Shown here one piece after another: positions 1-64,000 of a stretch of 64,000 bases of DNA (the stretch's first letter is position 1; the number at the start of each line of letters is the position of its first letter). The notes under the pieces were generated by a model. It saw only the letters and a list, made by a program, of their open reading frames with translations. It had not been told where the DNA came from and searched no databases. The position numbers and the translations under genes were made by a program. Origin of the DNA: Asterochloris sp. CNOR1 (lineage: Eukaryota > Chlorophyta > Trebouxiophyceae > Trebouxiales > Trebouxiaceae); assembly GCA_963969365.1 (NCBI GenBank), contig OZ017756.1:310001-374000 (forward strand), written 5' to 3'.

Positions 1-2491
1 TGTCGAGCGGACATGGCAGCGTAGCTCTGGGCTTTCCAGGCTGCAGAGTTATTGCAAGACCGGGGCACAAGCCACTGCCTGTCAGGTGCATGCAGGCCCA
101 GCAGGCATGGCGCATCTGCGGAAAACAGCAGTGCCTGCACCAAGTGGGGGCAGTGGCTTGCCTGACTGACAGACTCACCAGGCATCCTCTGCGCTGTGCC
201 CCTCTGGCTGAGCTTCTCTGGCGCGCCACCTGCGGTGCAAAGTGACCAGGCTTGCCCACTGCCACCTTCAGCTCTAAGTCAGCCGGCCCTGCTCCATGAG
301 ACATAGGCTGACACCCACACTTTGATGGGACATGAGACATAGGCTCACTAGGCCCTCTGGCAGAGACCATGGCAGGATGGATGCTGTCACACTCACTCCG
401 CTACCAGCCGCATGAGGCAGAGTGCGATCTGAGCAATGCTCCAGAGCCACACAGTGCCTGCATCAGCATCAGCTGCCTACAGCAGAAGCACAGTCTCCCG
501 CAGGCTCACATGACTGTCCCCGCAAAGTTTGGGGGGCCATCGCCCAGGCACTGCTGGCGCAGGCGGCTCCAGTACCCGTCGCAGATCACAAGCGCACTGC
601 CCTGCACAGAGTCGCCCTGCTGGAAATGCAGGGTCACGCCCTCATCGTCCGTATCATAGCGCGTCGCCTGCATGGGGATGTGAATGGTCTCCCCGGTCCC
701 ACCAAAAGATAAAGACACTTGGGCCAACCCTTATCAGTCAGTTTCTTGATCAACTCCAGAGTCAGACATGAGTGCACTCGGAGTCCAAGTCAGGGCGCCA
801 CCAGGCCTACGCCTGCAGAGGCGTGGTGACCCTACCATAAAGAGCACATTCTGGCTGTGGTAGGGGCCCGACCATGGAGATAACTGCTTGTGAATTGCAT
901 TGGGTCCTGTCAGAATAGCAGTAAGCAGCGTTCAGCAACACACAGGGCTGTTTGAGCAATGAGACAGATCACGGCTGCCACCTACACTGAAGCGGTGGGG
1001 TATGGCAAGTGCGACACCTTGCGCTTAAACAGCACTGCAGTGCCACCCTGCTAGGCATGGGCAATTGCTGAAGAGCAGATGTGGCTGTGCCTCACCTTGT
1101 GCTCAAATTGCACCAGGTCGGCCACAGGTTCATACAGAGCCTGCCTGATCTCGTGCCACCCTGTTAGGAAGGGCTTGTAGCCATAGCGCTTTGGCAGGTC
1201 CCCTACGTAGTCGTGAGGTGGCATTGCTTCCGCCTGCATGAGGGGTGGAGCTGTGTGGGAGCAGAGGAAGTTTGTGTGACATGCTGCGCCCACCAGCAGC
1301 ATAGGTGACTCTAGGGCGGGACAGCCTTAATGTGCACCTCCACAATTGCTGTAGCTGGCTGGAAGCACAGGTGCAACTGGGTTTGACGCATTCTAAGCTG
1401 AGCACCGAAATGCACATTTCAGTGCATGGGACGTTGGACAGTTGGTGCAGGTGACACTGCCTCTGTCTCCAAGCTGTGCCAGACCTGGCGGATGGACAAT
1501 GCTCGAGCATAGCGGAGTGCCTCCATCTGCAAATGGCAGGGTCAGTGCAGGCAGCCGAAGCAGAGCTGGACAGTCTGAGGGCGCCATGCATTCCCCTGCT
1601 GCGTGGGCCATATTGCAGGGTCAGAGCGATAGAAGCATGACTTGTACCAGTGAGAGACTTCAAAACTGCTGTTGCGTGTTGGAACCAGCCTGAAGGCCAT
1701 GGCCCTGCCCGGCAATGAGGGGAGCAGTGTCGAGCTTGTGTGACCGCCAGTACATTAAATCCCTGCTAGACAGCAGACGGGCAGTGCACTACAAAGCTTG
1801 CCTTCTTGCCGTGAATGGTGAAGCGCTTGAGGTTCTGAGGGGGTGCTCCTCCATCGCGCAGCCTGGAAAGAAAGATGTGCCAAGATCAAATGACAGACAC
1901 ACCAACATGCCACACCCTTCTGCTGTGGCATAGGAGCTGGGCTGCACTCGGCCTTTGGAGGTCAGGCGCACCACCCTGAAACATCCACAACGGGCAGCAG
2001 CAGTGCCCAAGCACACAAACATGCAAAGTTCCCAAAGCATGCAGATAGCATGCTGTGGCCTGTCAGGGCTGCAGCAGGTCTCATGGCTGCGGTGGGCCTC
2101 ACTTGGCAAGGACAGCAGGATCAATGGCTTCCAGCGCTTTCTGCCCATTGGGGTTGAAAAGCACTCCTGAGCCCTGCATGCGGTACCCTGAGCTGCCCTC
2201 AAACACCTGCACAGAGGCCTGTCCTCTCCATGGTGCAGCTGAACATCACTGCCAGCATTCTGTGTGCTTGTGACTCAGCTTTGCCAACATGTGCCCAGCA
2301 GCATCACCGACCTTGATTCGCACATCTGGCATGGCTCTCCTCAGTGCCAATGCTGCTGCCAGTCCTCCAGGCCCCCCACCTGCATGTTAGTGGAGCTGCA
2401 AGAGGCACACGCCCACAGAAGGAGAGCACATGCTTGGCTCAGGCATGCAGATCTCACCAGCAATCAGGACATCTGCCCTGGTAGCTGTCAT
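1..2491 (-). CDS. FAD-dependent monooxygenase (zeaxanthin epoxidase / salicylate hydroxylase-like), 3' end beyond window
   Basis: Group A flavoprotein monooxygenase: it would use NAD(P)H, FAD and O2 to hydroxylate or epoxidise a substrate. Exons on the minus strand are 2491-2458, 2379-2312, 2206-2103, 1862-1802, 1233-1096, 667-510 and 229-179. One exon between 1800 and 1240 is not resolved. The start (MTATRADVLIAG) leads directly into the FAD-binding loop GGGPGGLAAALALRR. Then come VFEGSSGYRMQGSGVLFNPNG, a block reading RYGYKPFLTGWHEIRQALYE, and the second FAD motif as CDGYWSRLRQQ, followed by FAGTVMWRAR. The first intron splits a Gly codon; the exon ending at 1802 appears to use a GC donor. 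The protein may be zeaxanthin epoxidase-like, but UbiH-like or salicylate hydroxylase-like enzymes share these motifs and no C-terminal domain is visible. It is divergent from the membrane protein at 3005. Family is seen; substrate is unknown. Confidence 0.8.
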
Positions 2492-3004
2492 TGCAATCAG
2501 GCTGCGGGATCAGGGATGCTGTACAGCTGCCATGTCTCTGAGGTTGTCGCCAATGCGGCTGTCGTGGCAATCAAGTGCGCTAAGTGAAAGATGAATCACG
2601 GGTAGTATTGCTGGTACCTTTGATGATGTGCATCCAAGCAGCTGAGTTTCGGGCAGAGCGTAGCGTTATGTCCACTGACCCATTCGCGTCAGATGGGGTA
2701 TCCAAGTTATCCTTTAACCAACAAACCCCACCACCCACACAGGTCACAGGGTGAGGGGTCTGTGCAGCCCTTATTGCACTGGTAAGCTCAGGCACCTTCG
2801 CAGCCAAAGGTAAGTCGAGCTGTACAGCCCTGCAACTTCTGACATCTTGGCAGAGACACTGATGCCCCCCTGATGCAGCAACACACCAGTACAATGGTGG
2901 GTGGCGTGGAGGTGGCCTGCGTGGTCATCATTGTTCTGGAGAATGTGATCTGCCATGCCTGCAATCAACACAGCTGGCTGCACACCCAGCTGCGGCTGCC
3001 CTAC
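2492..3004. promoter_or_regulatory. Divergent intergenic region between FAD monooxygenase and rolling-stone-like gene
   Basis: About 510 bp lie between two opposed start codons, so this must hold both promoters. I see no convincing TATA box or conserved repeat. In-frame upstream ATG codons (for example at 2873 and 2894) could extend the right-hand gene leftwards. Confidence 0.5.
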
Positions 3005-5911: not shown

Positions 5912-6164
5912 CAGCAGGGCTTCGGTTGACAGCTGCTGAGACAGTCGGGCAGTCCATGCAATGAGGGCTTCAGTCAAGTCTGTAAGACCTCTGCCAAGTG
6001 AGGAGCTTTGCGCTGCTATAGCCCTGCTGGGGGCGTCTGCGCCGTATGGTGCAGCATGGGGCTCAGCAGGAACTGTTCCCTGCACTCTGCTGTCAGCTGC
6101 ATGAAAATGTTGTGCAGCCTGGAGTTTAGCAGGAACTGCCTCTCAGACTCTGCTGTCAGCTGCA
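5912..6164. repeat. Short tandem repeat between convergent genes
   Basis: Between the ends of two convergent genes, the stretch about 6040-6165 holds two copies of a ~63-bp unit (read on the minus strand, each begins ATGCAGCTGACAGCAGAG). Both resemble the last exon of the minus-strand gene just to the right (its KLTACSEQEL codons), so they look like decayed downstream copies of it. Confidence 0.5.
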
Positions 6165-7799
6165 TCACATGAAGTATACCAGCTGCTCTGCATCCTCGTC
6201 TGCCAGCATGAGAGTTTCTTCCTCGTCCCTCATGCGCAACACCTCCATCAGTTCCTGCTCGCTGCATGCCGTCAGCTTCTGCCTGTGCATGACCTGCTGC
6301 GTCCACAACAGCAGATTGGCCACCTATGGCCAGCAGGGTTGTCACAAGGCAGAGCATTGTTGCTGGTACTGCTGAGGTCTGTGGTGCCTGTTACCCCATG
6401 TGTGCGTCAGCAGGCAGCGCTTGGCCGAGACCTGCCCAAATGGCGAGGGCCCATTTAATAGACTGCTGCTGCACTTGTGCAAAGCTGCGCAGCTGACAAC
6501 ACAGCCCCCAGCAAGCAATGCACCTCCCGGCTGTGTGCCTGCTCTGGTGGTTGCACATACATGGGCTGTGTGAGCGGTGCAAGTGATGCACGACATGGTT
6601 GCAGGCAGCTGCGGCCACAAGCACTTACAATGAGCTGCACGATAGACATAGGCACCCTGCCAAGCCATGATAACTACATTCCTGCACAGAGTTGCCGCCT
6701 CGGCAATGCACAGCCTTCCCTTGTGCAGGCAGCTGACTCCCTTGGCCGATCCTCTTCATTCAGGCGAATGAGGTCCCTGGCCAGTAGTCCTGAGCCAAAG
6801 GCCTGAACAAACGGCTGGGTGTGCTCACTTGGAACGTGTGCTGCTCGCTGGTGAGTCTGCCGCTCATGGCCTCGATCAGCGCCCTCTGCAAACATTGTGA
6901 GGCCCTTGCCCGGCAGCAGGAGGCTTCTGCCTCACAGTGCCGCAGGAATGAATGGTGCATGCCAGGCCAAGCAGGGCTGCTGGAGCGCTTCTTTCGGTTC
7001 AGGGCAGCACATCACAGGGACGCTTGCTGTCTTGACTGGCAGGCTGACCTCAACGAGTCCCACGCTGCCTGCAGGTGGCCCTGGTCCATGGCTCTCAGGC
7101 TGCAGCTGCTGCTCCAAGTCTGGTGCCTTCCCCTGTGGCAGCACTCTGTGCCAGGCAGCTCGCTGGTGGCTGCCAGCTGGTGAGGGGCAACTGTGGCCGG
7201 GGGCCGGCTGCAGTGGAGCCTTGCTGGTGTGGCGTGCCAGCAGGGGCTGCGTCAATTGATCTGGCACACGCAGGGACGACGTCGCCGCTGCTGAGCAGGG
7301 GCGGGCAGGCTGTGAGCCAGCGCGGCAGTGCGCTGCAGGTGAGGTGTGGCTGAACAGCTGCGGCTGACTGACTCCTGAGGAGCGGGCTGCAGAGCCTGCA
7401 ATGTGCAGCATGGTGTTACACTGCAGCAATAAACATGATTTCAGCTTGCAGGGTACGCCTTGACAGCAGTGGCATGTTGCTGTGCAGGCTGGCGTAGCAA
7501 TATGCCCTGCAGCAGGCGGTGTGAAGCCTCAAGGCAGCAGTGGAGACACAGTTTGGAAGCATGAAGCCCTTAGCAGAATCGAGCTTGCCTGAAGACCCAC
7601 TGTACACCCTGCTTCTGCTGGACTTTCGCCTGCCTGCTGGTACATCTGTGGTCTGTGAGGGCTCAGGTTCCTCTAGCAAGTCAGGGGTGCTGGCTGCTAG
7701 GCCACCCCCTCTCTGCAGATCACCTGCGAACGCGTGATGCTCGTTCACAGTCGGTAGAGGCTGTGACTCGCACATTGCTTGATCTGCTGCTGCTTTCAT
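6165..7799 (-). CDS. Unrecognised protein with helical core and acidic C-terminus
   Basis: I do not recognise this family. The first exon starts at ATG 7799 and encodes a polar, Ser/Gly/Arg-rich segment (MKAAADQAMCESQPLPTVNE and on). A long low-complexity Pro/Ala/Ser region follows between about 7330 and 7040. Well-supported later exons are 6885-6829 (RALIEAMSGRLTSEQHTFQ), from 6802 (AFGSGLLARDLIRLNEEDR), one near 6490-6430 (FAQVQQQSIKWALAIWA) and the last, 6323-6165 (VANLLLWTQQVMHRQKLT, then an acidic run MRDEEETLMLADEDAEQLVY and stop). The pattern suggests a mostly helical protein. The phase between the last two exons is not settled: an alternative frame continues to about 6016. It starts 145 bp from the plus-strand gene at 7944, so the two probably share a promoter. 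Confidence 0.5.
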
Positions 7800-9434: not shown

Positions 9435-12400
9435 CAGTTGCCCTCATCAGCTGAATTGGAGCCCACGTCAGAGCCATTGTGCAGCGCCGCAACTCCTGCC
9501 TGGAGCCCGGCTCCAAAGCTTGTGGGGGGCTGCCAGCGGCCAGCCTGCAGGAGGGGGGGAAGTGTCAGCGCTCAAGTCTTCAGTGCAGCAGGAATGTACT
9601 GCAGTCAGTTTGCAGGGAGGTGTGAACATATGGAGTGTCTGTACAGCAGCCACGGTGGCTGAAAGGCAGTGCAGGCAGGGCGTGGTGCTTAAGGATGGAC
9701 GTCAAGCGGCCACCCTCGTAGCTAGCCCCTCAGGCAATTGATTGGAAGGGTCTACGCTGCCAGCCGCATCTTTGGCCGTGCCAAATGCAAGCAGGGGGTT
9801 GATGGGGTCAGCTACTTGTATGCGTGCGATGCCAGACCTGACATGCACCTCCCTTGCAAAACTTGTGGCTGGGACATGGCCACGCAGCACATGGCCTGCT
9901 TTGCACAGCAGTCCACCTGTGTCCCCAGCAGGCCTATTGCAGATCAAGCTGGCGCAGTTTCTGTTAGGTTCCCACTGTTAGGTCTCAAAAGAGGCTAAAG
10001 CAACAGCAGTCCACCAGGCGTATATGCACCTTCGGAAAGAGACTGGCTGGGCAGCTACACCTGTAGGCTGCTCACATCAATGACGCCCCGCTCAACAACA
10101 TTGTTTGAGGCAGCCCTGGCACGCCCTCACCAGCTTCAGCCGTGCCCCGCATCAATCTGCTCAGATAAGACTGCCTTGGAGTCAGTTTGTCCACAGCTGG
10201 ACATTGCGCCCTCTTCCTGCCTTACCACAGAACAGCCAAGGCAGCCCTGCCTGAGGCTCTCTCTGGCAAACATCACCAGCAAGTGGCTCACCGGGGTTAC
10301 CGCTGCCTCCTGTGGGCTGCTCACATCATCGTCGTCTTCGCCCTCAATTTCAGCAGGGACAACCACCTGCAGCTGGTGCCCACCAGCACTGAAGCTCTCA
10401 GCGGGCCGCACAGCTGCATCCTGCTGCATTAGCGACGCTTGGGGGGCCATGGAGTCACCAGACGCTTCTGGGTTGTCAATCTGCAGTGAGACACAGCTTT
10501 GTGTGAGCTGTAGGTCACCAGACACTTCTGGGTTGCATGCTGCAGTAGGGCATAGCTCTGTGTGGGCTGTGCGGCCACGGGCAGCTGAAAGCCTCAAAGG
10601 AGCTGCGTAGCCACCAGCAGCTGGAAGACCTGCAAGCTTGAGAGAATGTGCAAACAACAGAGCTGTATGAACCAGCTCCGCCGCCGCTCCTGCCATCAAG
10701 TCGGCAGGGACTGCCTGCTTGTACCATATCACTGCAAGTCAGCTCCACCCAGACAGAGTGCAGTTGTCAGCCCACCTCGACATCCATGTCTACTGGCTCT
10801 GCAGCTGCTGCCGCGATTGGGCTGGCAGGGAGTGCCTGCCCTGGCGAGGGCTGCGCCTTGCTGCCTGCAGCAGATGCAGAGGAGAAATCTCCTTGCAGTA
10901 CGCAATGCCAGTGGAAGCTACACAGGTCGCTGCAGCAGACTGCAGGTCAGGATTCCTATGACTCTGAGGGAGTGTCAGTGCACTGTTGCTCAGAAGAGGC
11001 TTTGGGCTGGCTCTGGGCAGATTGCTTGCCTGCACAGCAAGATCTGGAGCTCTGCAATGCAAGCCAGTGCACAGAAGCTGCTCTAACCAGCTGAGGCAGT
11101 CTGTCAAGGGATTTTGCAACTCCTGCCCGGTGTGCTCACCTGCGCTGCCTTGAGGCAGCTGTCCACGCGCACTGTCCACGCGCACAAACTGACCCTTGAC
11201 CCGCGGACGTGCCTCGGCCAGCTGCTTGCGGCTCTCATACCGGATCATCTTCCTGAAGTTCATATTCTGCAGAACGCAATAGGATCCTGAGAGAAGAGGA
11301 TGCTCACCATCAGGGCTGTCAGACACCCTCAAGTTGCTGCTGGTGTACCAGGCCAGTCAGCATTACTCAGAGACCCTCAATTTGCTGATGATGTACCAGG
11401 CCAAAGCAGCAACATCCCGCTGGGAAGCTGACGTCATGGCATCGTAGTAGACAGTCTCCAGAGGAGACTTCAGCACAACAGCATTGCGGTGGCTAGGCTA
11501 GGCTACAGCCCACAGCTGGCACTGCTCTTGCGCACATGTTACACATGCTGCAGCGCCACCCGTTTGCCATTTTCACATCTTGCAAGTGTACACCTGTGTG
11601 CACATGCATATGTGAGGTGCCACAGGCCTGGAGTCACAGACGACTCACCCTTCGCTTGGCCTTGTACTTGTTGAGGGCGTGCAGGCGCCGCTCAGCCCTG
11701 CTCATCTCGCGAGCGGGCCCCTCCTCGCAGAGGGCCAGGTTGGCTGCATGCACCTGGGCAGCGGTGGCAGAATGTGCACGGGCCATCTGGCTGCCACTGC
11801 CTGTGGGCAGAGAAGAGGGAGAGGTTACGCATTGCATTGTAGGCAAAGGCAGCCCTTTGCATTGCTATGAGACACAACCATCCCTACAGACAGAACCATC
11901 CCTACAAATGAATCCCCAGTGTCAAGCTGGCCCCCGCCCCTCTTGGTCCTCACCCTGACTGCTGCTGCTCTGAAGCAGCCTTCTCGTGCGCCTTGCAGAC
12001 GTCTGACGGCTGCAGATGCTGGACAGCAGGAGGAGCCAGGTTGCAAGCTGCTGCCTGCCACTGAGTGGCGCCACCGGCCTGCAGTCCCAAGCGTGGCCGA
12101 CTCTGCTCTGTTGATCTTCCCAGCCCATGCAGATACTGTCAACATCACCCACCTTCATGCAAGGGGACGCATGCCGCAGGTCGCGCCACCGAGCTGCCCT
12201 CCCCCAGCATGGCTGAGTCTGCTCTGCCGATCTGCATCTGCTCAGCCCGTGCAGCTACCGCGTCCTCGCCAGGTCCAGGGGCATGACTCCTGTGCTCAGA
12301 CTGCTGCCCAGGGGACTCCCCGCTCTGGGGCGGTGCCGGCCGCAGCCTGCTCTGCGCGTTGTTTTGCTCGTGCCTGCGGGCCGCTGCCGCCTGCCGCTGG

Positions 12401-15400: not shown

Positions 15401-18400
15401 CTAGCAGCAGGGGGATGACGCCTCGGCGCCCATGACATGCACAAGGCTGGCAGTGCATGGCAGAATGAGCTGACATGCCAAGCACAGCCCATCAGGTGGG
15501 ATGTGCCCGCCTGTGCAAAGTGTACAGGCTGCTGCTTTGAGTGCAGGGCCAGCACTGGGCCGACAATCCCAGGGGCTTTCCGCATAGGCAGTGTGCATCC
15601 CCGCCAAGTATACCTGCCCTTGCTTGCAGCAGTCACCAGGTCTGCGGCCGCTGTCTCGGACTGTCCTTGCGTTGCCACTGACTACAGGACACAGCGGCAC
15701 CGTGCAGGCAACACCACTAGCCCCTCCCAGGCACCCAGCCCATCTCAAGCCAATCCCCTGCGTTGTGTGGCTGCCCTCACCTGCCGCAGGGGTGGGGTCT
15801 GCTCCTGCTCCTGCAGCCTGCCCCTCACTGCCAGGCTGACGCCCAGAAGCCAGCTGCACCTCTGCCACCTGCCCGCCGGCACCTGCCGTGCCAGCAATGC
15901 CAGCACCTGCCCCACCGGCTGCGCTCTGGCCCGTGCAGCTCGGTCTGTGGGCATTCCCTGCAGCGCCTCCCACTGGCCCGGCTCGTGACAGCGGAGCAGC
16001 AGCTGCCGCCTGGGCTGCCGTCCCCTGATGTGGTCCAGCGCTGTGCACCGCCGGCCCACTGACTAGCGTGCCGTCCTTGCCGGCAGCAGGGTCCGGGCTG
16101 GCGCTGGTCTGAGCCCGGCTGCCCAGCTTGGTGCGGCTGCTGTCCTGGCCGCCGCTGCCCCCGCCCGTGCTGGTCCGCAGACCTGTGTCACCTGCAGAGC
16201 CGGCCTTGTCAGCCTGGCTTGGCTGCTCCTTTCCTTCTGCGCTGCCCCCGCAGGAGCCCAGCTCGTCAGAGGACCTCCGGTTCCTGTGGGCACATGTGGA
16301 TCTTGCAGAGCAGCCACAGCCTGGCATGGACTGCAGCAGTGGAACGGTTGGCCCTTGACAGCTCTGCCTGGAAGCAAGGAAGCCAGGCGCACCTGCTTGA
16401 AGGTGCAGGTATGATTCATCATGGATATTGTATGCTTGCAATGCTCGTGCGTGGCAATCCTCAGCCTCAGCACATGAGACAGTGAGGGTGGTACCTGGTG
16501 TCCAGGCTGCCTGCCCCGCTGTCAGTGGCAGCAGGGTACCCATGGCCCTGCAGCTGGGGCACGGGGTTGCCCTGTGCTGCAGCAGGCTGTGCAGCTGCCT
16601 CGGGGGGGCCATAATGCTGTGCCACCTGCAGGCAGTGCGTTGGAATGTCAATGAGTGAAAGAAAAGTAGGCGCAGGGCGTGGGGATAACGTGTGCAGCAG
16701 TTATCTTGCCTGACCCTGCTTGAGGGGCCGCAGGTGCGATGCGCTGCGTGATGTACTTTAGCGCATCGCATCTGCGGCCCCTGAAGCAGGGTTTACTTCG
16801 CGGTGCCACCGCAAAGCAGCGCGTGACACGCTCCTTGAATGTTTCTCGGGACCTGTGCTTCTGCTGCAGAAATGTACAGCAGATAAATGTGAACTGCCAA
16901 AGAAGGACGGCGCAGAGTACAGCCAGGCAGATGCAGAAGGGACCTGGCTCGCTTTTTGCAGTTTGCACTGCAGAGCAGCCGTTCCCCTGGTAGGACACGC
17001 AATCACGGCAGCCACCGCATGTAAGGTCCCATCTGCTTGCATGGGAGACGCACGGTGTGACTGCCAGGGATCTGAGAGTATCGCTGCCGCTCGCAGCAGA
17101 CCAGCTTGCAGGGGTGTGCTCCTGCCAGAACAGCCCTGTCAAGTGCTGCAACAGGTGTTGATAGAGACAGGTTGATTCCACAGTCACATTCCCCCAACCA
17201 CCACTGCAGCTTGTGAGCAGAGCCAGCACCTCACCTTGCGCCACCAGACCTTGGTCCACAGGTTCTGCAGCTCGTTCTGCCGCAGGGGCTGCACCAGGTA
17301 GTCTGCCGCCCCGCTGTGGAGGCACTTCATCACAGCCTCCTTGTCACCGTTGCTGGACATGACTGCAGCCACAGCGCAGACAGAGGGTTCAGTAAAACCT
17401 GAACACACAAAGGGCGCCAGCTGACTGGAAGGTGTTCAGCAGCAGCCAGAAGGGACCATGTGCCTCATGCATCAGCGTGCCAGTGCAACTGCTTGCGGCG
17501 AATCCTTGGAGACTGCAACAGACAGCGCCCCCCGGCTGGAAGGGTTGTCTTGCAGCACTGGCTTGTCGAGTGCAGTTATGCTGCTTCATCTGACAGGGAG
17601 GCAACTGGCATGGCAGTGGCTGCTGCTGGCCAGATGTGGGTTTTGCATGGAGCCCCGCTGAGTTGTGGCGTCTCACGGGCAGAGGGTGGCATACTGCAGG
17701 AAAGTGCAGAACCACAATTGTAAAGAGCGCCTTGTGTGTATTTGCCCAGAGTGCAGCCTTGCAACAGCAGTAGAGAGGGGCCGGCCATCAGGTATACCGT
17801 ATCAAAGCCTACACTGACACTTGCCAAAAAGAGGCAATGGACTGCAGTCAACCTGCGGCATGTCTGTGCACCTGCCACAGGGTTCCCAGGCTTCAAACCT
17901 CACTGTGAAAGGAGGCTCAGCAGCAGAGGCTGACGCAACCGCCAGAAAGTGCAGTGGAAACACTTTTCGGTGACAGGCGCCATGTCAGGCTTTGCTCTGT
18001 GTACCTCCACGAGAAGCACACTAGGTGTGGACGCTAAACAATGGCACCCAGGTGTGCCTCAGCAGCAGTGGCAGAAAGTGCTGTTGTAGCAGGACATTCC
18101 GTGCCTGTGCATGCACCCTGCCCTGTGAGTGGACCAGGCCTCACACAGATAGTCCCAGCTCGCCAATGACATGTGTGTGCATCAGCGCCATACCAGCCAG
18201 CACGCAGCGTGGAAATGTAAAAGTGCAATGCAGTTCCAGAGGACCAGACCATGTCAGAGATGCAGTCAGCCTCCACTGGCCCACACAGGGAGCACAGGCT
18301 CACCAATGACTGGAGTGTGCTTCAGCGCCTCATCAGCCAAGACCCGTCGCAAAAAGCGGCAGGCGTTCACCGTGGGTGGGCTGTGCTCCTTCAGAATGAT

Positions 18401-20262: not shown

Positions 20263-23226
<2,964 letters not shown>

Positions 23227-41256: not shown

Positions 41257-44200
41257 TCACACCTTGCCTGCCAAGTGCAGCGCAGCAAGGCGGTACACGT
41301 CAGAGTGCGCGTCCACAGTCAGCTGCAGCTCCTGGGGGGAGCAGTATCCTCCGCCCATGCAGACCACCAGCGGCACAGCCGCCTTGCGGCAGGAGCGGTA
41401 GACCATCAGATTGCGCTGCTGCAGCCCCTCTCTGCTCACTCCCAGTCTGCAGGCCAGAGATGAATCCTTGGAGCTGCCTAGTGTCCGTCTAACTGCAGTG
41501 CTCAAACTGCTCTGCTCCCACAAAGATATTGTGCTCAACCACAACCTGCAGACCGCAAAGAGCAAGCGCGCAGCTTGGGGCTGGCGGCTTCACAGCTGTC
41601 AGCGCTAAGCTAGCTGCAAACATGTGATATCGGAAGCTGACCATCTGCAGGCTGGTACAGATGGTTAGCAGGCAGCCAGAGTGCAGGCCATAATGAGGTG
41701 GCTTGCCAGGATGATGCCATCTGTAAGCATGACTGCCAGGTCTTGCTGCTTGTTTTGTGCCTGGCCAGCTGAGGAGGTGCAGCCTGAAATCTTACATTGT
41801 CTGCAATAAGCAGAGAATCAACCTGCTAGATATGAGCTGCTCCTCAGCGAACTTTGGTCATGCATTAAAGTGGACCACCTGCCAAACTTGTGCAGGCTGG
41901 CTCGGGCAGTCCCCCACTTCCCAGAGAGTGCTTCTGCAGACCACATGTGGGTGTGTAGCAGTAGTTCACCAGCTGCGAGTTGTGCCCACATGCCAAACTT
42001 GTGCAGGCTGGCTTAGGCTAATAGTCCCCCACCTCCCGGAGTGTACTCCTGTGAAGCGCCTATATGGTGGTGCAGGAGTCCACACGCTCGGAACTGTGCC
42101 CACCTGCCAAACTTGTCCTGCTTTAGCGCATCCACGCCTGCCTGGAAGAAAACCAGCTCTGGCTGGTGGCGCGCAAACAGCAGAGGCAGCCAGTGTTCCA
42201 GCTGGCCGAGGTACTCGTCATCTGCACAGTCGTCAGGCAGGGCCACGTCATACGTGCTGGTGCGGCGAGTGCTCCAGGGCCAGTTCTTGGCGCCTGCGCC
42301 AACAGATTGCCAAAAGCGTGGGGCGGCCTGGTCTGCTGGGTCGTTAGGCATGGCGACACTCTATACGTTGGTGCAGTGGGTAAGATAGGCCCAGCTTCTG
42401 GCGCCTGACCCAGCAGGCAGGCTTGCAGTTGAGTCGCAACCTTCCTGTGCGCCAGGCAGGCCTCAAGCTTCTGCAGAGTGCTAGGTCCTGCTTCTGCCTA
42501 CTGATTGCTACAGGAGTGCAGGGCTCTGGTCACCTCAGGTAGGCGCAGTGGGTTAGAGCAAGCAAGCTAGGCCAGACACAAGGCAGCCCTTGATGGCTGG
42601 TAGCTCACCATGCATGTCAAAAGTGGTCACTCGCTCATCCTGGTGAAAGATGTCTGAGGTTCCGTTGCCCTGCATGCGGTCACCGCTGAGGACAGCGCAG
42701 AAGGCTGCAGGGCAGCACAGCACTTACACGCACAGCAGATGCTACATTGCAGGTGCAATGCAGGAGGCTAGTAGGCAGCTGAGTGCAGCTCAGCACGAGC
42801 AGCGTACTAGGCTAAAGGCAGTACAGCAGGTGCAGCAAGATTGTGAAGGCACAGACCAGAGCAGCAGGCAGCTAGGTGCAGCAACAGTTGCATTTATGAC
42901 AGCGGGCATTGCAGAGGGCTGCTAGGCGCAACAGCAGGTGCATTTGCAGGCACACCAGCCCGCAGCAAGCAGTGGCAACAGTACCTGCACCTCACTTGCT
43001 GACCTGGTGGACGTCAAGATCTGCAGGGAATGCACTGAGCATGAGAGGAGTCATTACTGTACTCACAAGGGTAGCACAGGGGGCCTCCAGATGAAGCTGG
43101 CCACAACCATCATGCACAGGCGACAGCTGACAGCAGACTATCTGGGGAGCCGTCATCTTTTTGAGACAAAGGCAGCACAGCAGGTGAGGGCATGAAGCAC
43201 TGCGCCAGTACGTCACGGCGGCACTGCTGGACCGGCGTGGTCTGGCACAGCAGGGCACAAGGTTGTCGCCTTGTCAATCAACAATGCCAGCACCTTTCCA
43301 ACGGAAAACAATGGACTGGCATAATCTGGCATTCCAGGGCGGAAGGTTGTGAGTTTGAGATCCCAGCAGGTGCCCTGCACCACCCACCAATCACAAGAAT
43401 GCGCTGCAAGCCATACTCGTCAAAGGCTGCCATGGCGCTGACTGCAATGTCATTCCACACGCAGTAGCCCTCGCCGATGTGCCTGAAGGAGTGGTGAGTC
43501 CCACCTGCACAGCAGGTACATCACATAACCTTGGACACTTCTTGAACGTTTTTCTTACCTTAAGAGAGGACAGGCGTGGCCTGCAGCAGGGCCCTAGACG
43601 CATGCCCGTGAAGTGCTGAGCCATTGCCCCTCAATGCCAGCCAAGAGGCAAGCAGGTCCTTTGACAGCATGCATGCCGACTGTTGGAGAGTAAACAAGTG
43701 GGTCTGGCCACCTGCAGCAGCGCCTACAAGCAGCCACGCACAACACTGTTGCAAAGACACTGGTGCAATTCACAAGCCAGGACCCGCGCTCGACCTGCCA
43801 CCAAATCAATGCCAAGCAGTGCCATGTCCATAGGAAAGGCCGACCTCCGGCTGCACAAGGCGCCTGTGCAGATGTGCAGGGTGATGGGCATGCAGAAAGA
43901 AAGCAGATACTGATTGCAGAACAGGGCACCATGGGGGCACTATGGTGCACAGCTTCTCAAGGCCAAACCCACCCGCCAGGTTGCAGGTGATGCCAAGATT
44001 CCACTCCAGAAGGGAGCGAGTCGCTGCCAGCGTGCCCCCGCAGGAGCAGTTGCTGCGCAGCACCAGCTTTGGAGACCAGGGGAACCCAATGCCCCTGACT
44101 TCCTACAGGCAAGCCAAGGCGTCATGCACTCCCATATGTGCAGTCACGGAGCATGGCCAGGCAACAGGTGCTGGTGCAGTTGCCCTCAGGGCTGGCATTT

Positions 44201-45717: not shown

Positions 45718-48700
45718 ATGATGCTCCTGAGAAGGGGAGTGCATGGCCACTGCTGGTGCAGAGTACAGTCTGCAAGAGCAGCAACATCCAGTGCCACTGT
45801 TCCAAGGAAGACAACCCAGCTGCAGAGGCCGGCCCAGCCATGCAGGATCTGGCAGCCCCAGACATACAAGTCAAGAGTCCTGGAGCTGTTTGACCAGTGG
45901 GCTGGAGAGTGAGTGCAAAGAGGGACTTTTTTGCAGCATGGCGCTGCAAAGTGACACAAACCTCTACCCCCACATGCTGTCACGGCTTCTTCGGTGAATG
46001 CTCTGAATTATGTCCCTTGTGTATCTGACTCCATCAATATGTTTGTGTTCATGCAGCTACCATGAGGGAGACTTCATGCATGGGCCACGAGCCACGCGCC
46101 TGGTGGGCCTGGCAGAGCTGAAACCTGGGGACATTGTCCTGGACATAGCTACAGGCAAGCAGGTGGCCATGAATGGCCCAATGGCCAGATTGCCCTTGAG
46201 CACACATGCGGTGGCTTGCTGCATGTGCCTCATCCCATCACACAGGCTTGCCAGGGTGCCCTGCTGAGCAGGACGTGGGACCATGTTGCATGTGCTGGGC
46301 CCCATCACAGCACATAGGCAGCGGTAGCTCATGCACGTTCCCAGGTATGTCCCAGCCCCGCTGGGGCTCTGCAATGTCTTTAAGAAGTGATCTCCGGTTG
46401 CAGCAGGGCACAGCAGTCAGGTTGCTGGATTTGCTTTGATTCCGTCCTGGGGCACCTGCAGGCACAGGCAGGTGGCTAAGTAGGCCTGCAGACCTGTTTT
46501 GCCCCGCAGATCCAAGGCACAGCAGGCGGGTCCGGGACTGTCTAGTGTGAGCCCTGTGCACCTGCAGGCACAGGTCTGGTGGCAAAGCGGGCCTGCAGAG
46601 CTGTTGGCCCCACAGGGGAGGTTCATGGCCTGGATTTCAGCGAGGGCATGCTGCAGGAGGTCAGTGCTTGCAAGCCGTCTGCAGGCTGCCCGCCGCGCAC
46701 TGCCCTTGTGCTGCGTCACGCTTCACTGCTGCACTCACCACTTTTTGGGCTGCCCTGAGCCTTAGTCGCACATGTCGTGCACGCCTGCAGTCCTCTGCGA
46801 TGTCTTCGCGAGGCTATGCTGCACAGTGCTGCTGTGCGCAGCTGCATCTTCACAACGTGTGATGAACGCTGCACTTGTGGTGCCGCCCTGAGCTAGGCCC
46901 ACACTGCAGAAAGGTCAGTGCTTCAATATCATGGCACTGTTGCACTGCTGCTCACTACGCAGCGCTGCTACACTTTTGGTGCTGCCGTGCACCAGGGCCA
47001 CACCTGTTTGACATGCCTGCAGCGCTCTGCTTGCTCCCTGGCTTGCCCCAGCAGCTGCTGCTGGCAAGCAGCCCTCGTCTCACTTGGCAGCCCTGCATCC
47101 CTGCTGCAGCCCATTCTCTGCTACAGGTATGCGTGACGTGTGCACCCCTGCTGGCAGCATTCCACCCTCCTGGCTTAGCAGGCCACAGCGCCAGCCTAGC
47201 CCTGCACATTGCAGGGCTTGAGCCACCAGGGTGGCTCACTGCGGCTGCGCCTGAACCTGTGCCTGGGACTCGACGACAGCAAGCGCATGGGTGATGCAGA
47301 GCCTGATCGCACCTCTCCTGTTGCAGCTTGAGGCGAGCCCCTGGCTGAGATCTCAACTGCAGAACACTGGAACATGTGTGCTGCTCTACAGGCTCACTCC
47401 TTCTTCCCTGCTGCAGCTGCTAGCCAAGCCATTGATGGCGATGCAAGGACAGAAAGCTCTTCCCTAACGCCTTTGTTGTGAAAGCAGCAGCGTGAGCAGG
47501 AACCCAAAGCGTCCCTCCTGCATGAAAGAGGTCCTAATTCCCTTCAATTTGCCTGATGCAGCTGCAGTCCAGGTTGCGCCTGGGCCCCAATGACGGCAAG
47601 CTCTTCTTGGACGTGGGTGATGTGGAGGAGATAGAATGTGATGACGCCAAGTATGACGCCATTCTCTGCTCAGCAAGCATGAGCTATTTGCTGGACCCGG
47701 TTCAGGCACTGCGCCAGTGGAGATGGTGGCTCAAGCCTGGGGGACGTCTCTGCTTCAACATCGATGCTGCGCCGTGAGTGGCTGCAGCAGTGTCAGCTTG
47801 GGCCCTGGGGGCCACTGCAGCTCAATATTGTTTTGCAATTGTGCACAGCTGCAGCTGCGCTGCACCTCAGTGTCAAGACCAGAGGGGTGTCAGTAAGCGC
47901 CATGAGCTTGTGTTTCAGGTCTTTGGGTCAGCTTGCCTTGGCTTTGATGCTGCACTGCGAGTTGATGCAGCTGGGCGCCTTGCAGCATAGCTTTGGTCAG
48001 CGGCTTCCCAGGCCAGCTGCTGCCCAGGCCACAGAGGCACCGCTGCCTCTGCATCACATGTTGTATTACATGGGAGGGCAGTCACCACAGGTGCCAGCAG
48101 GTGCTGCAGCACGAAGCAGGTGTGGCAGCATCATCTGCGATTCTCGGGTCATTGCGCATATGCATCTGTTCTGGAGCCAGCCACACGCGCACATGCAGCA
48201 GAACATAGAGAGTCCTGCCAGCGATTGGCGTGTGCAGCCCTGAGGAGCATTACCACCATTTGACACCCCAGCATGCTCATGCCTTGACCGCAATGACTGC
48301 AGGTATACTAAGATGACGCATGTGGTGTTTCAGCTGTGCGAGCAGTATGGGCTGCACTTGCAAGAGGCATCAGCCCCATTGGGCACCGCCAAGGCTATCA
48401 GGAAGGTGCTGGCAGATGCTGGCTATCGGGATGTGAAGGTGGGAACCTGTGGGGACATTCAGCCAAGGATGCTCAGACCTGATTGCACTATCATGTTTAC
48501 ACCACATAAGGAACAGCGCTCTTGCAGCTGGCAGAGGTGGCTACAAGATGTTGAGGGCGGCGAAGGACTCCAAAGGCCTCTAAACATGTTCTGCCTGCAT
48601 CATAGCTGGCAAAAGCAGGGGCTATCAGGATGTGAGGAGGAGATATGGGCGCAGTTTGCCTCTGCTGAAGAGGGTGCTCGCACTTGCCAGGCACTGTCAT

Positions 48701-50355: not shown

Positions 50356-50381
50356 ATCGGTTTCCCACTGTCTGTCCTGAT
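50334..50381. repeat. 24-bp perfect tandem duplication
   Basis: Two adjacent copies of a 24-bp unit beginning CGGTTTCCCACTGTCTGTCC, at the 3' end of the doubtful small gene. Confidence 0.9.
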
Positions 50382-57805: not shown

Positions 57806-60800
57806 TTGCTGGCAACGCGCAACATGTGGACATCAACCACGTACTTGGCTGTGCAGAGTGGGAGCGCCACACCCAGGCAGCTGCTGCAGGCTGCCCAGCG
57901 CGTGGCTGCAACGGGCAGTGTGCCTCCCCGGGTGCCCGAGGGGCCAGACTCCGGCGCAGAGCAGCCAGACGGCAGCAGGCAGCGCAGGGGCAGCATGGCT
58001 GCCAAGAGGAAAGGGCGGCCTCGTTCAGAGTCCCCAGCAAAGCGGCAGGCCACAGGGAGCCGTCCCTTCCTGCCGCCGGCTGCCGCTGCTGCTGCCCAGG
58101 CTGCTGAGGCAGAGCACAGGGCGCTTCAGCGGCGGAAGGCTGCCAAGGCCGGCTCGCCGGGCCGCGCCCGGCCGGCTGCTGCACAGCCTAGGGCAGCAGA
58201 GGAGCCAGCCGTGGCCCAGGCCAGGTCCATCCATCTGGACAATGGCAGCTCTGAGGGGCAAAAGCCCCAGGGCAGACCCAGGCAGGCTGCAGCCCGGGCC
58301 GGATTCACAGAGCGGGATGGTGACAGTGCTGGAGGGCGGGAGCCTCACAGGAGGCTGGGCCGGCAACAGCGAGCCCGTATTGCTGCCCAAAAGACTGCAG
58401 CAGGATACATGCCTGCCAGCAAATCCACCAAGGCTGGCGCCGGCAGCGATGGCGCAGATGCTGGCATCAATACCAGAGGCAGTGCCAGCAATAAGCAGGG
58501 CCCTGGCGACAGGCCTGCCGCTGCCGAGGACCAGAGCAAAGTCAGCAAGCAGCTGCCGCCCGCCAAGCTGCCCAGCTACCAGGAGCTCTTGAAGATAGGG
58601 GCAGTCCATGACCTCAAGCCTGCCCAGCACCAGGCTGTGCTGGACCACGTCCTGCACTTCAGGCAGAGCAAGAGGGCGCAAGACCAGGCGCTAGCACTTT
58701 ATGTCAATGCCCAGGTGAGCAATGCTGGCGCTGACTCATGTCATCAGGCAGTTTGAACAGGGCAGGTGCTGTGCCTATTGGTGCTCAGCTGAGCGCTGCA
58801 CCGTGTTGTTGAGCAGCGTCGAGACACTCCACACGTCCCCCACAGGGTGGGGCTGCGTATGCTGACAGGACCGGGTGCTGACGCTGTATGTCAATGCTCA
58901 GGTCAGCAGTGTTGTAGCTGTATAGTGTTGTTGGGCAGGGTAGGGGAGTCAGGTGGAGGCTGCCATATGCGCAAGCTGTGCCAGCATGACAGCGCATGCG
59001 CTGTCGGTCCTGTTGCTCACCCTCCCCCGTGCGTCCCACCTGCAGATGTTCCAAAGGACGACAGGCGTGCTCCAGTCCCTGATTTTGGCCCACATGACCC
59101 CCGATCTGGCAGACTCTTTCACACGGGCAGAGACAGGCACCCTGCAGGAGCAGCTGTTTGACATCTATGCTGAGTATGTGCTGGAGGAGCACCGTGACGA
59201 ACTGCAGGCTTACAAGTGAGTGTCTTAAGTTGACCTGGCTTGAGTCCTGCATGCTGGCGCATGGGCATCACAAGCATGAAGAGCCTAGCTCTGTTCTGTG
59301 GGAAGATTGGCTGCAGATGAGGCAGGGCTGTCTGCAGATGCATGGCTTTCGGCATGCACCATCCCCCTGGGTGGGCGTTGGCTGCAGGTTGTTGGTCTGC
59401 TGCACCAGTGGCTTGCGCATCAGCAGGTCGAGCTACAGGGCCACACAGAAGCTCAAAAGTTATGGCAGCACACAGGCATCGTGTGCCTCAAATCCTGTCC
59501 CACCCGGGCTGCAGGATCAAGCGAGTTTTGCTACCTGAGTAATGTCAGCTGTGTGGTGTGATCATGCTGTTGCTCCTGCACTGCCTCAGCACGGCCCAAG
59601 TGGGAGATGGGTGGAGCGGGGTGCAGGGCCAGCATAAGAGTCCCACATGTCTCTCTGAAGTTGCGGCATCAAGACAGCCAACAGCTGCAACTCTCCTCTG
59701 TCTAGAGCCTTACTCAACATGCGCATTGGCGTGGAGGGGTTGGCGAAGCTGCTAGTCCTGCAGCAGGCAGGCACCAGTGTTTGTGTTCAGTTGCAGAGGT
59801 TGATGGGGTTGGCGAGCTATCCTGGACCACTCAGTTGGGACCAGCATTGTACTCTGTGCCCGCAGGGAGCGCGTCAACACGGTTGACATGCGCAAGTCCC
59901 ACCTGTGGTACCCTGTTGCTCGAGCGCTGGAGCGGCGCATTGTTTACCACGCTGGGCCCACCAACAGCGGCAAGACCTATGAGGCATTGCAGGTGGGTTT
60001 TCCAGACCCTAGCAGCTCAGAAATGATGCCCATTACGCGGCTGCAGCAGACAACATGCCGGTCCTCCAGGACTCGCATGGGCGGCGCAGTCAGATGGCAG
60101 CAGACAAAGCAGTCCAGCACACTTGCACGAGCTGATGGACAGGCTTAGGCTGGCGCCACAAGGTCTTAACATCGGGGCTGTAGCTGTGGGCTGCCAGTGG
60201 CTGTGTGACAGACCAGTGTGAGCTGAAGAGCAGGCTCGGGCAGTGCACCAAGATTGCTAATGCCCTGCAGGAGAGGTGGACACTACTGGCATGCCCTGGC
60301 TGCTGCTCAGCCACACTGGCTGCTGCAACGTTGTCTGCTGCAGTCATGGCTGCTGCTCAGCCACACTGGCTGCAACCATGTCTGCTGCAGTCGTGGCTGC
60401 TAAAGGTGGCTGTGGGGCGCAATGCGGCGCTTCTCTGCGCCTGCATGCCGCAGACAAGTCAGCTGCAGCTCATCCAGAGCAGGTGCACTTGCTCATGCCC
60501 CCAGGTCTCCTGCAGAGTTCACAGCGGCCTTCACTGACCTCACAGCAACATGGACTGCGACAGGCAATGAACGGGGCCTGACCAGGTCTCTGCGCCTGTT
60601 GCACTGAATTCCGCAGGTCTGGCAAGCAAAGGCACCCTGGCCTGCTCCAGTCAGTCCTCGTGGTCCCACTGCAGGCCATGTAGGCTGCTCAGACAGGTCT
60701 CTGATGTACATCATTGAGAACAATGCTCTGCAGGCCATCAGGGCAGCTGAACCAGGCTGCACTGCAGCGCCCTGCTGACAGCGGGCAGGGCCAAAGCTGC

Positions 60801-63800
60801 TGCCAGCGTCGCCCTGAAGCTCTCTGTGGGCCATGAAGGCGGCTGAGGCAGGCTTGCGCTGTGATTCATGACATCGGCAGACAGGCAGCTGCTATCTGTC
60901 ACCAAGTTGGTCACTGCTTTGGGTGCAGGCAATGAAGGCGGCTGAGGCAGGCCTGTACTGTGGGCCCCTGCGGCTACTGGCCATGGAAGTGTACGATGCC
61001 CTGAATGCTGAGGGGACGCCCTGCAACTTGGTGACGGGGCAGGAGCGCACGGTGCTGCCGGGAGCCAGCCACATGTCCTGCACCGTGGAGATGACGTCCA
61101 TGAGCCAGCGCTTTGACGTGGCTGTGCTGGACGAGATCCAGGTGAGGGGGAGGCAACTCACTTGCAGCTTGAAGCGCAAGCCTTGCAGCTGATGTTTGGC
61201 CTCTTGGGTGGGCGCATCGTATGCAGTGCTGCACAAAGACACAGGTAAGGGAGGCTGGGTGGCGTGCTGCCAATGCCCTGCATAAATTGTCCTCCATGAG
61301 CCAGCGCAGGTCATCGACATGCCTTCGAGCCACTAACTCGTGAACGTCTGCCTTGACCACCGTCAGATCTGCTGTTGTTGTAGAGGCACCCATCCTTTGG
61401 AGTGCTGTTGTGCTCAACATCCTGCAGCCAACAGTGAGGCCTGACAGCGCTGGCAGTGCTGGGGAGAGACCCACATGAGGGAGCATTGTAACAGGGTGGT
61501 GTCTGGCATCTGTGCAGCTGACTTCCCAGAATGGTTGCTTGAACACAGAGTCCTTTGGCAATGTTCAGGACAGGCTAGCAATATTTGCTGCTGTAACTAC
61601 TGGGATATGTGTGGCTCTAGCAGCAAGAGGGCAAAAGGACGATGTCCTTGTCTGTGCCATCAAAATGGCTGCATGCATTCCCTCTATATGAAATAGTCTT
61701 TTTCAGCCTTTCACAGCCTGACCTGCACCCCATTGGAGGCCTTGCTTTGGGTCAATGCTTGGGCACTCTGCAGCGCATCCCCATTTGCCCTGCCCTGCCC
61801 TTACAGTGTCCACACCTTCCAAGCGCACTGCCGTCCTGGGGTCACAGACTGTTCCACCTCTCTGGCTTGCCCTCCGCATCTCAGATCGCCTCACTCCCTG
61901 TCTGCATTGCGCTACAGCTGATTGGGGACCAGGCAAAGCCCTCACATAGTCTCACCCACAGCATTGCTCTGCAGCTAATTGAGCACCAGGCGCGACCCTC
62001 AGGTTGTCTCACCCACTGCACTGCCCTGCAGCTGATTTGGGACCAGGCCGGGCCCCTCAGATTGTTTCACCCGTTGCGCTGCCCTGCAGCTGATTGGGGA
62101 CCAGGCGTGGCGAGGCCCTCACACTGTCTCACCCGTTGCGCTGCCCTGCAGCTGATTGGGGACCAGGCGCTGCGAGGCCCTCACACTGTCTCACCCGTTG
62201 CGCTGCCCTGCAGCTGATTGGGGACCAGGCGCGGGGTCACGCCTGGACACGAGCCTTGCAGGGCATCCCTGCCAACGAGATCCATCTCTGCGGGGACCAG
62301 TCTGCCCTCAATGTGGTGCGCCAGCTGTGCGACTTCACCGATGAGGCCCTAGAGGTCAAGCAGTACCAGCGGTGGGTGCCACCACTGGCAAAGCACAGCC
62401 CTTGCCTGCGGCCTGCATGCAGGAGGTGCTCACCAACATGTTGCAGATGGACGGTGGCGGCAGAGTTGACCCTTTTAACAGTCTGGACTGCACTTGGCAG
62501 CATACTGCACGGCAGTGCCACATGTGAGCCCAGACTGCTGTTAGCAGGCGAGGGCGAGGCTTGCGCCCAGCACGATGTCTGTAGACACAGTATAGTAGTG
62601 CTATTGAAGGGTCCACGACGGCTATTGGGAGTTGCCGTATGCCTATTGGCCCAAGCAGTGCCACTGGTGGAACTCCAGCAGCCAAAGCACATTGGCTCAA
62701 CAGCTGCACCATGGGCGGCTGCTGGTCCACTTGACTGACAGCGCAAGTCAAATCTAGAGTATCCCAGATCTCCTGCGGGTCTGATGTGGGGGACTGTCAT
62801 TTGTGGTTTCACTAGGTCAAGCATGCTTGCTCAGTTCTCATATGAAACAAGTAGCAACAATGAATATGCAGGTTTGGGGAGCTGGAGATAGAGCAGCAGC
62901 ACCTGGCTGGAGGGTACAGCAGCGTGCAGCCAGGCGACTGCATTGTGGCCTTCTCCCGCAAGGACATCTTTGAGATCAAGGCAGAGATTGAGAGGACCAC
63001 AGGCCATAAGGTGGGCACACTGCAGTGCTTCCACGCATGTCCTCTGAAGGCCAGGATTGATGCTGTTGCTGGCTGCACTCTCGAGCGCATGCCATGCAGA
63101 TATGACGTCATGGCTGCAAGTTGCTGCATCTCAAATTGTGTCGTGCATCCACCTCACACAGGGTTTGCACCTTTAGATCACGCCCAACATGGAGGGCTGG
63201 TGCAACAGACCCTTCTAGCTCAATGAGGGTCAGGGGACCATATCATACTGCTCTGACATTGCACGTGACCAATGATGGGCACCAGCAAAGTTCCCAACAA
63301 ATCCAAGAGACACACTGCAAAAGTGTGCAGGTGTGCGTGGTCTATGGCGCCCTTCCCCCAGAGATGCGGCGCCAGCAGGCTCGCCTCTTCAACGAGAGCC
63401 GCAATGGCTATGACGTCCTGGTGGCTTCGGATGCCGTGGGGATGGGCCTCAACCTCAACATCCGGCGCATCGTGTTCCACACGCTCCAGAAGTATGAGGG
63501 CCGCGAGATGGTGAGCAAGGACATTTGATTGTTTCCAAGTGAAGCTGCTACGTCTTGGCATTGCGTGGGGGTGAGGGCCTCATGGTGCCGTTGGGCATTC
63601 ACCCATGATGATGATGCCTGCATCTCATCATGTCAGGCGGACTGGGCATCAACACTTGCCGCTATCTTTTGCACCCCTGCAAGAGTGCGAGAGGCGCAAC
63701 ACTGCGTCTGCTTGCTTTCAGGCAGGTCCTGGCCAATGAGGGCATGTCCAGAGCTCTGCAAAGCTGAGACATGCTTCAGGCCCTTGCAAAGGGTGCCACT

Positions 63801-64000
63801 GGTGCATGCATGTGTGCAAACCACTGGTGTGCATTGATATTCTCCAGAGTATCGGAGGCAGTTGAGCCTACAGCCAATCATGCGTGGTCTGTTGGGGCTG
63901 GTAGGCTGAGGCTGGCTGGGCCAATGGGCCACAGTGGGCCCTCTGCTGCCTTGCAATGCCATCTCAACAGCAGGCCTGCCAACCTGTTGCTCAGCTGAGC
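57806..64000 (+). CDS. SUV3: SUV3-type mitochondrial RNA helicase, 3' end beyond window
   Basis: DExH/Ski2-like RNA helicase of the mitochondrial (and sometimes plastid) RNA-degradation system. Exons seen: 57806-58714, 59046-59215, 59866-59992, 60929-61141, 62214-62371, 62872-63010, 63331-63510; the gene continues to the right. The first exon has an import-type leader ([20 protein letters not shown]) and a long, Ala/Gln/Arg-rich disordered region before [20 protein letters not shown]. Motif I is [14 protein letters not shown]. Motif II is the SUV3-specific DEIQ in VLDEIQLIGD. Then [59 protein letters not shown] and the motif V/VI block [18 protein letters not shown]. Introns contain striking tandem copies of exon edges. 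The start could instead be a spliced exon upstream; the leader makes 57806 reasonable. Confidence 0.94.
58866..58915 (+). repeat. Downstream copy of the SUV3 exon 1 donor junction
   Basis: The stretch 58866-58915 (with CTGTATGTCAATGCTCAGGT) repeats the end of the first exon and its donor at 58688-58725 (CTTTATGTCAATGCCCAGGT). Confidence 0.8.
60300..60405 (+). repeat. Two-copy repeat in SUV3 intron 3
   Basis: Two ~52-bp copies, each with GCTGCTCAGCCACACTGGCTGC followed by GT(T/C)xTCTGCTGCAGTC. They are not similar to a neighbouring exon. Confidence 0.6.
60660..60865 (+). repeat. Three decayed copies of SUV3 exon 4 start
   Basis: The real exon 60929 onward begins GCAATGAAGGCGGCTGAGGC. The best copy, 60829-60862, keeps CATGAAGGCGGCTGAGGCAG; weaker copies lie at 60728-60775 (GCAGGCCATCAGGGCAGCTG) and 60669-60702 (GCAGGCCATGTAGGCTGC). 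Copies become more degraded with distance from the exon. Confidence 0.8.
61918..62235 (+). repeat. Six tandem copies of a 3' splice junction (SUV3 exon 5)
   Basis: Copies of CTGAT(T)TGGGGACCAGG-type exon start preceded by GCCCTGCAG-type acceptors begin at 61918, 61974, 62032, 62090, 62152 and 62214. The period is 56-62 bp and the last two units are nearly identical. The copy at 62214 is the one that stays in frame with the DEIQ exon (phase 0) and continues into HAWTRALQ; the others run into the next unit. Divergence increases to the left. Confidence 0.93.

Follow-up and report, generated by a model that had tools for sequence, protein, structure and literature searches.

Copies of exon edges in neighbouring introns of the green alga Asterochloris sp. 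CNOR1 and their likely origin in local tandem duplication

Why would an intron hold copies of the exon beside it? The question is raised by a 64-kb window of the green alga Asterochloris sp. CNOR1 (contig 11, positions 310001 to 374000), in which an initial annotation had noted gene after gene with introns that carry copies of the adjacent exon edge, splice site included. These copies are here called exon-edge echoes. To our knowledge, the lengthening of introns without transposons is poorly resolved. The host assembly comprises 56.4 Mb in 21 contigs with a G+C content of about 57%, and the lichen alga Asterochloris glomerata is described as having a 56-Mb genome with 9 introns per gene (PMC6652019).

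The stretch studied is the window together with 100 kb on each side of it, and these 264 kb are meant below unless another scope is given. Gene models were made with our own simple self-trained gene finder, trained on the same 264 kb. Once 5 of the 56 models had been excluded for having fewer than 300 coding bases, 51 genes remained, with 532 introns (mean length 293 bases, median 250). Introns account for about 60% of the 264 kb and coding exons for about 30%. As learned by the gene finder, the splice consensus is CAG/GTGRG at donors and CTGCAG/G at acceptors, the slash marking the splice point. The acceptor consensus is a strong one, with T at about 90%, G at about 91%, and C at about 96% ahead of the AG, giving TGCAG/G, and the donor reads GTGRG.

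Exon-edge echoes in their own introns

The echoes were sought by matching a 45-base exon edge against its own intron, with splice-site bases omitted and a score of at least 16 required. This test left out 257 of the 532 introns, in which the flanking exon was shorter than 45 bases or the intron shorter than 120. Same-strand matches were found for 57 of 550 exon edges (donor 27/275, acceptor 30/275), and the presence of echoes on both sides, as had been proposed, is borne out. By comparison, edges from other genes matched in 18 of 5500 cases (7/2750 donor and 11/2750 acceptor; Fisher p of 7e-23 for donors and 2e-23 for acceptors), and introns are therefore more similar to their own exons than to random ones. 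The remaining controls were similarly sparse: reverse complements of the edges matched in 5/550 cases (1/275 donor, 4/275 acceptor), the far ends of these exons in 4/423 (1/210 and 3/213), and edges lying over 1.5 kb off within the gene in 3/893 and 4/893. Interior intron probes set against random introns gave 2 matches in 245 at a score of at least 16 and none at 18 or above.

A replicate was made of seven HDAC-family loci on six other contigs, 23 kb in all, with one further locus removed as it overlaps another (L008 and L007, respectively). Here 37 of 59 introns were dropped for a short flanking exon or intron, and own edges matched in 8/44 cases, spread over 5 of the 7 loci, against 0/44 for reversed edges and 3/880 for edges of contig 11 genes. 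The pattern of exon-edge echoes in own introns is strongly confirmed as real and reproducible. A scan for all echoes, which skipped introns shorter than 100 bases and edges shorter than 25, returned 74 echoes on 65 intron sides, in 64 of 532 introns and 20 of 51 genes, while a strict automatic scan of the window alone returned 10 echoes among its 140 introns. The echoes had been described as genome-wide, and this stands insofar as they are seen on other contigs, but they are frequent rather than universal. Introns with echoes are longer (median 365.5 versus 230.5 bases), although longer introns also give more room for detection.

A local excess of direct copies is also visible independently of the gene models. 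Self-comparison of the window with BLAST (E<1, distance <1 kb) gave 26 direct and 0 inverted matches, and at lags of 100-500 bp the 264 kb hold 135 direct and 6 inverted copies, compared with 2 and 1 in one shuffle, in keeping with the claim that the copies share the orientation of the exon. An ungapped scan, which also sees short lags, found 106 pairs, 104 of them with a lag below 500, and none in one Markov control. When 17593 probes of 45 bases were searched for a nearby match at a score of at least 17, 734 had a direct and 100 an inverted one; the same probing gave 4 direct and 3 inverted of 3327 in a stretch of E. coli, and 114 direct and 6 inverted of 1494 in the seven loci on six other contigs. 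The direct-copy excess is therefore not confined to one region. The duplicated units measure about 30-450 bp, and the lag histogram gives a mean lag of about 160 bp.

Tandem units, their decay and the place of junctions

The tallies of lag and boundary, substitution spectrum, and splice sites were made with one echo per edge, second and further echoes being dropped. On this basis, 43 of 65 echoes extend at least 5 bases on each side of the junction, and in 20 of 65 the matched span is at least 0.8 of the lag, meaning that the copies abut. In the other 45 the match covers less of the unit, an outcome that decay would likewise produce. Two units in the right flank serve as illustrations, one of about 78 exon and 5 intron bases at a lag of 84, the other of 33 and 37 bases at a lag of 72. 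Pairs lying wholly in exons have a lag divisible by 3 in 9 of 14 cases (p 0.017), compared with 93 of 267 other pairs (p 0.60), an excess that is expected if selection filters coding duplications. The echoes are tandem duplications across the exon-intron junction, of which one copy has been kept coding.

The decay of the other copy is shown to be neutral, like that of free intron DNA. Mismatch rates at the three codon positions are 0.167, 0.141, and 0.214 over the 74 echoes, and none of their 33 indels is a multiple of three, although the aligner disfavours long gaps. CpG transitions number 68 of 309 versus 143 of 1713 elsewhere, and the substitutions are without strand bias (C>T 106, G>A 105). 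Of 46 junction-crossing echoes, 25 retain the GT or AG, where overall identity predicts 27.0. Identity is higher in the exon parts (2481/3192) than in the intron parts (1047/1455), as would follow if just one of two exon copies decays. Young copies are scarce, with an identity of at least 0.9 in 6 of 146 pairs with a lag of at least 60. The initial annotation had also described copies as more decayed further from the exon, and this is not established: the nearest copy is the best in 5 of 7 edges with multiple echoes, and over the 74 echoes the distance gradient is not significant (rho -0.13, p 0.29). Repeat-induced point mutation was considered and rejected, as transitions are alike at C/G (0.104 per site) and A/T (0.112) among 711 substitutions, with just an ordinary CpG excess.

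It is very probable that the echoes are explained by frequent, mostly old, short local tandem duplication, placed without visible regard to splice junctions. Short duplications of about 30-450 bp would arise locally, whether or not a junction lies within them. Where one junction is spanned, the event would be tolerated, since the 5'-most donor or the 3'-most acceptor would still yield the old mRNA; these would presumably be the sites that serve in vivo. The spare exon end and splice site would then be intronic and lengthen the intron, and introns may well have grown in this manner. The intronic copy would decay as ordinary intron DNA while selection holds the exon copy, and exon/intron pairs would stay recognisable for longer than pairs within intron interiors, with most of the visible events being fairly old. 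The copies themselves may have been made by replication slippage or end joining.

The part played by junctions was examined in introns of at least 200 bases at a score of at least 18, where 7.08% of exon sides, 2.43% of intron sides, and 2.06% of interiors match the intron. With other introns admitted, these become 6.6-7.5%, 1.9-3.4%, and 3.1-3.2%; the interior rate at this score is 2.45%, 3.1-3.2%, or 2.06% depending on the introns and targets admitted. Duplications thus also hit intron interiors, and junctions do not look like hotspots, being special mainly in visibility: what makes exon edges conspicuous is chiefly that the exon copy is spared from decay. Of the proposal that introns grow by tandem duplication over the junction with one copy remaining coding, the direct, local, and partly abutting copies uphold the event itself, but it is not visibly aimed at exon edges. 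Untargeted duplication was simulated with exons frozen and mRNA-neutral events retained. Duplication at a constant rate was rejected as a full explanation on the exon-to-interior ratio, while a simulation in which activity ended about 0.12 substitutions per site ago gives a ratio of 3.3 versus 3.4 observed and makes intron sides equal to interiors, which is close to what the introns show. The observed exon-edge frequency is roughly reproduced at simulated rates of 0.005-0.01 events per bp per substitution per site, and the rate that best fits the ratio is somewhat higher at 0.015. Taken with the mean lag, the lower rates would imply the insertion of roughly one base per intron base per substitution per site, which in this crude model would be balanced by deletion. 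That short tandem duplication is a main source of intron DNA in this lineage, with introns mostly recycled local copies and a duplication wave that has since slackened, is a bolder idea that we put forward only tentatively.

Several results weigh against untargeted, mostly old duplication. The constant-rate simulation gives a ratio of 1.5, and on an earlier statistic 0.8-1.0 versus 2.7 observed, and it yields too many high-scoring echoes. The simulation that fits the ratio overshoots the rates themselves (exon 11.0% versus 7.1%, interior 3.3% versus 2.1%), so the age profile is just roughly fitted, and the old age distribution is an assumption of the model, though one that fits the small number of young copies. 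Some local similarity is inverted, as the 100 inverted against 734 direct probes attest, and exons compared with their own gene in reverse reach 3.4% at the loosest cut-off of the exonic-base measure given in the final section, concentrated in two genes. The replicate loci were picked through an HDAC search and not randomly. Our own gene models also err: some echoes were called exons (DRG1, SUV3), one model merges epimerase and PRR-like domains, and an internal stop occurs in 3 of the 12 models that overlap the window.

Alternatively, splice junctions may be duplication hotspots, with a process linked to transcription or splicing, such as breaks at R-loops, copying junction DNA preferentially. 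Echoes are indeed roughly three times commoner at exon edges than in intron interiors, which is above the constant-rate prediction without targeting. However, a hotspot should raise both sides of the junction, and the intron side shows no clear enrichment in either comparison above; old age together with frozen exons reproduces the exon-to-interior ratio with no need of a hotspot, and we consider targeting unlikely. It is also conceivable that the echoes are functional as alternative splice sites, mutually exclusive exons, or splicing decoys, given that 21 of 46 junction-crossing echoes score at or above the 10th percentile of true splice sites. Yet their splice dinucleotides are kept no more often than the neutral expectation, 37 of 46 are weaker than their own true site, their CpG decay is typical of unconstrained DNA, and the lack of indels in multiples of three, tallied over all 74 echoes together, points the same way, making a function for the echoes at large very unlikely.

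Two further readings concern where such pairs come from. In the Rogers model, a new intron arises when an exon segment containing AGGT is duplicated in tandem, and its raw material, short tandem duplication, is abundant here; in one intron of the right flank (window 129224-129341), a lag of 119 goes with an intron length of 118. When lags were tested for being in register with intron length, however, 1 of 336 introns qualified at a score of 8, where 0.75 were expected, and none at 10 or above, and at this sensitivity it is scarcely credible that introns are being created in this way. Lastly, the echoes could be an artefact of gene prediction, base composition, or shared splice motifs, as the gene models are self-trained and the edges share CAG/GTGRG or CTGCAG/G. 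This reading is already refuted for the core observation, since edges of other genes share the same motifs and rarely match, far exon edges and reverse complements match as rarely, the direct-over-inverted excess is independent of gene models, and homologues in the PDB back the exons in three genes.

Individual genes of the window

The initial annotation had named eight genes: PRR, epimerase, DRG1, GH5, HDAC, methyltransferase, SUV3, and a gene at 6165. Each holds local direct pairs, of which the window has 64 at a score of at least 14. Exon-edge echoes are found by the strict scan in the merged epimerase/PRR model, GH5, and SUV3, and by homology and hand alignment in DRG1, HDAC, and SUV3, but the real exon edge is unconfirmed for the methyltransferase, the epimerase part, and the gene at 6165. 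The features are collected in the table below.

Table. Exon edges, echoes and local pairs in the window (positions within the window)
Gene	Feature	Position	Strand	Match	Support
SUV3	Array of about 5.5 copies of acceptor CTGCAG and exon start, period 57-62, last copy entering exon at 62214	61880..62233	+
SUV3	Exon with 5' edge echoed by the array	62214..62371	+		Homology, human SUPV3L1 (7w1r)
SUV3	Echo of start of exon at 60929	60829..60863	+	31/35	Exon homology
SUV3	Weaker echo of the same exon start, partly called exon by gene finder	60670..60707	+	29/38
DRG1	Acceptor CTGCAG and start of exon encoding VISTARTC...	27451..27520	-		Homology and hand alignment
DRG1	Nearer echo, lag 204	27679..27712	-	29/34
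DRG1	Further echo, lag 333, CTGCAG retained	27786..27853	-	52/70
HDAC	Exon end (...KQDKFG) and probable donor, first copy, running into second	41986..42116	-
HDAC	Donor-side echoes, lag/period 111	41875..42002	-	99/132
HDAC	Acceptor-side echo of 42221-42305 (start of predicted exon 42033-42293)	42332..42416	-	61/87
GH5	Acceptor and exon start	38683..38740	-
GH5	Echo of 38683..38740, lag 181	38864..38921	-	46/58
GH5	Pair 39124-39265 / 39328-39471, mostly intronic, one end overlapping predicted 22-base exon	39124..39471	-	105/147
PRR-like part	Exon end and donor	18278..18339	-
PRR-like part	Donor-side echo, lag about 140	18137..18199	-	48/63
Epimerase/PRR model	Donor-side echo of 12158-12233, lag 116	12042..12117	-
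Epimerase/PRR model	Abutting acceptor-side duplication 10454-10511 / 10514-10570, lag 60	10454..10570	-
Methyltransferase	Abutting pair 46404-46509 / 46513-46615, copies ending in acceptor-like CAG; exon edge unconfirmed	46404..46615	+	80/107
Epimerase part	Pair 21887-21928 / 22135-22176 around CTGCCCTGCAG; exon edge unconfirmed	21887..22176	-	35/42
Gene at 6165	Tandem pair 6049-6102 / 6112-6165 within long predicted intron; exon edge unconfirmed	6049..6165	+	46/55

Searches with phmmer against PDB chains support exons of DRG1 (yeast Rbg1, 4a9a), HDAC (9rje), and SUV3 (human SUPV3L1, 7w1r). In DRG1, the further echo is partly predicted as an exon (27822-27847), and residues 228-264 of the query, the echo-derived part, are without a match between two matched stretches of 4a9a. 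Similarly, HDAC residues 322-358, from the donor-echo region, are without a match between two matched stretches of 9rje; the acceptor-side echo of HDAC copies the start of this very exon, so both of its ends are echoed. The SUV3 exon preceded by the array begins CTGATTGGGGACCAGGC; the array itself is a minisatellite and a possible seed of variable-number repeats beside a coding exon. Pfam supports the epimerase and GH5 names, places the response-regulator domain of the PRR-like part under its cut-off (26.8 versus 30.2 bits), and returned no match for the methyltransferase piece or the gene at 6165.

Some other features of the stretch were noted in passing. The GH5 gene has a tandem repeat of about 44 bp at 38435-38562, largely in a predicted exon, and its predicted protein has a Pro/Thr-rich repeated linker (TPSPTPPPTTTAAR...). 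The highest-scoring local pair lies left of the window in a predicted intron (274152-274376 and 274556-274779 of contig 11; 225 bp, 94% identity, lag 404). The sole inverted pair of the window at E<0.01 joins 23262-23388 to 31198-31328, about 8 kb apart, at 69% identity. It was rejected as a dispersed repeat after a genome search found no further copy, a search insensitive enough to miss the diverged second copy as well. At 23673-24947 there is a small four-exon gene that looks chaperonin-10 (GroES)-like by eye from its predicted sequence. No tRNA genes were found in the window with ARAGORN under the bacterial code, and no Rfam families at gathering cut-offs.

Implications and comparison with known systems

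With one copy frozen and the other decaying, the rate, unit size, and age of duplications become readable from one genome, and if introns are indeed mostly recycled local copies, exon edges would be a fossil record of intron turnover. Echoes are also an annotation hazard, as those with good splice signals can mislead gene finders, which happened here in DRG1 and SUV3, and they form a ready supply of candidate alternative splice sites. Among the papers listed by the literature searches, which leave out most subscription papers, none was found to describe junction-straddling echoes as a class or such echoes in algae.

Short local tandem duplications are reportedly found across eukaryotic genomes (Messer and Arndt in 2007 and Thomas in 2005 are said to have treated them), and Gao and Lynch are said to have reported in 2009 that internal gene duplication is ubiquitous, splice sites included. 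Introner elements are repeated sequences tied to eukaryotic introns and inserted in many genes. The echoes differ from them in that each intron resembles its own neighbouring exon and not the introns of other genes.

Most short insertions in primates and flies are described as tandem duplications (PMC2374710), and these have direct orientation, adjacency, and small units in common with the echoes. That work concerns short insertions, whereas in the present stretch the units, of about 30-450 bp, are dense enough to leave a mark at an exon edge in roughly one intron in eight. Tandem genomic duplication is also presented as an established source of introns, both in a review (PMC3443670) and for a potato gene (PMC4974935). 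The type of mutation is the same, with splice sites copied along, but in the intron-gain model a new intron is made, while here the intron is already present and gains a duplicate of its own edge. The potato gene additionally has an 83-bp duplication inside an intron, which its authors set aside (PMC4974935).

Closest in material are tandem exon duplications and degenerate intronic exons (PMC9013439, PMC12343006), which are likewise exon-derived copies in introns of the same gene; the tool Exonize flags intronic exon matches as possible unannotated or degenerate exons (PMC12343006). As described, these studies target exon copies and alternative splicing, whereas the copies here are partial, often straddle the junction, and are decaying. 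One published study of exon copies within genes (PMC9013439) puts them, at 80% identity, at about 2% of human exonic bases, compared with 0.08% in the fly and 0.06% in the worm. In the stretch studied here, same-strand target bases within genes at 80% identity or more amount to 2.21% of exonic bases, with 1.20% in introns, a rough comparison given that our measure only approximates the published method and the default score threshold of its aligner. The value is 1.98% after a low-complexity filter, while reverse complements give 0.33% and other regions 0.04-0.07%. With the loosest cut-off, the own gene gives 9.10%, its reverse 3.40%, and other regions about 0.66%. The process itself is a known one, and it is the density of echoes, seemingly high for a compact genome, that is the surprising part.

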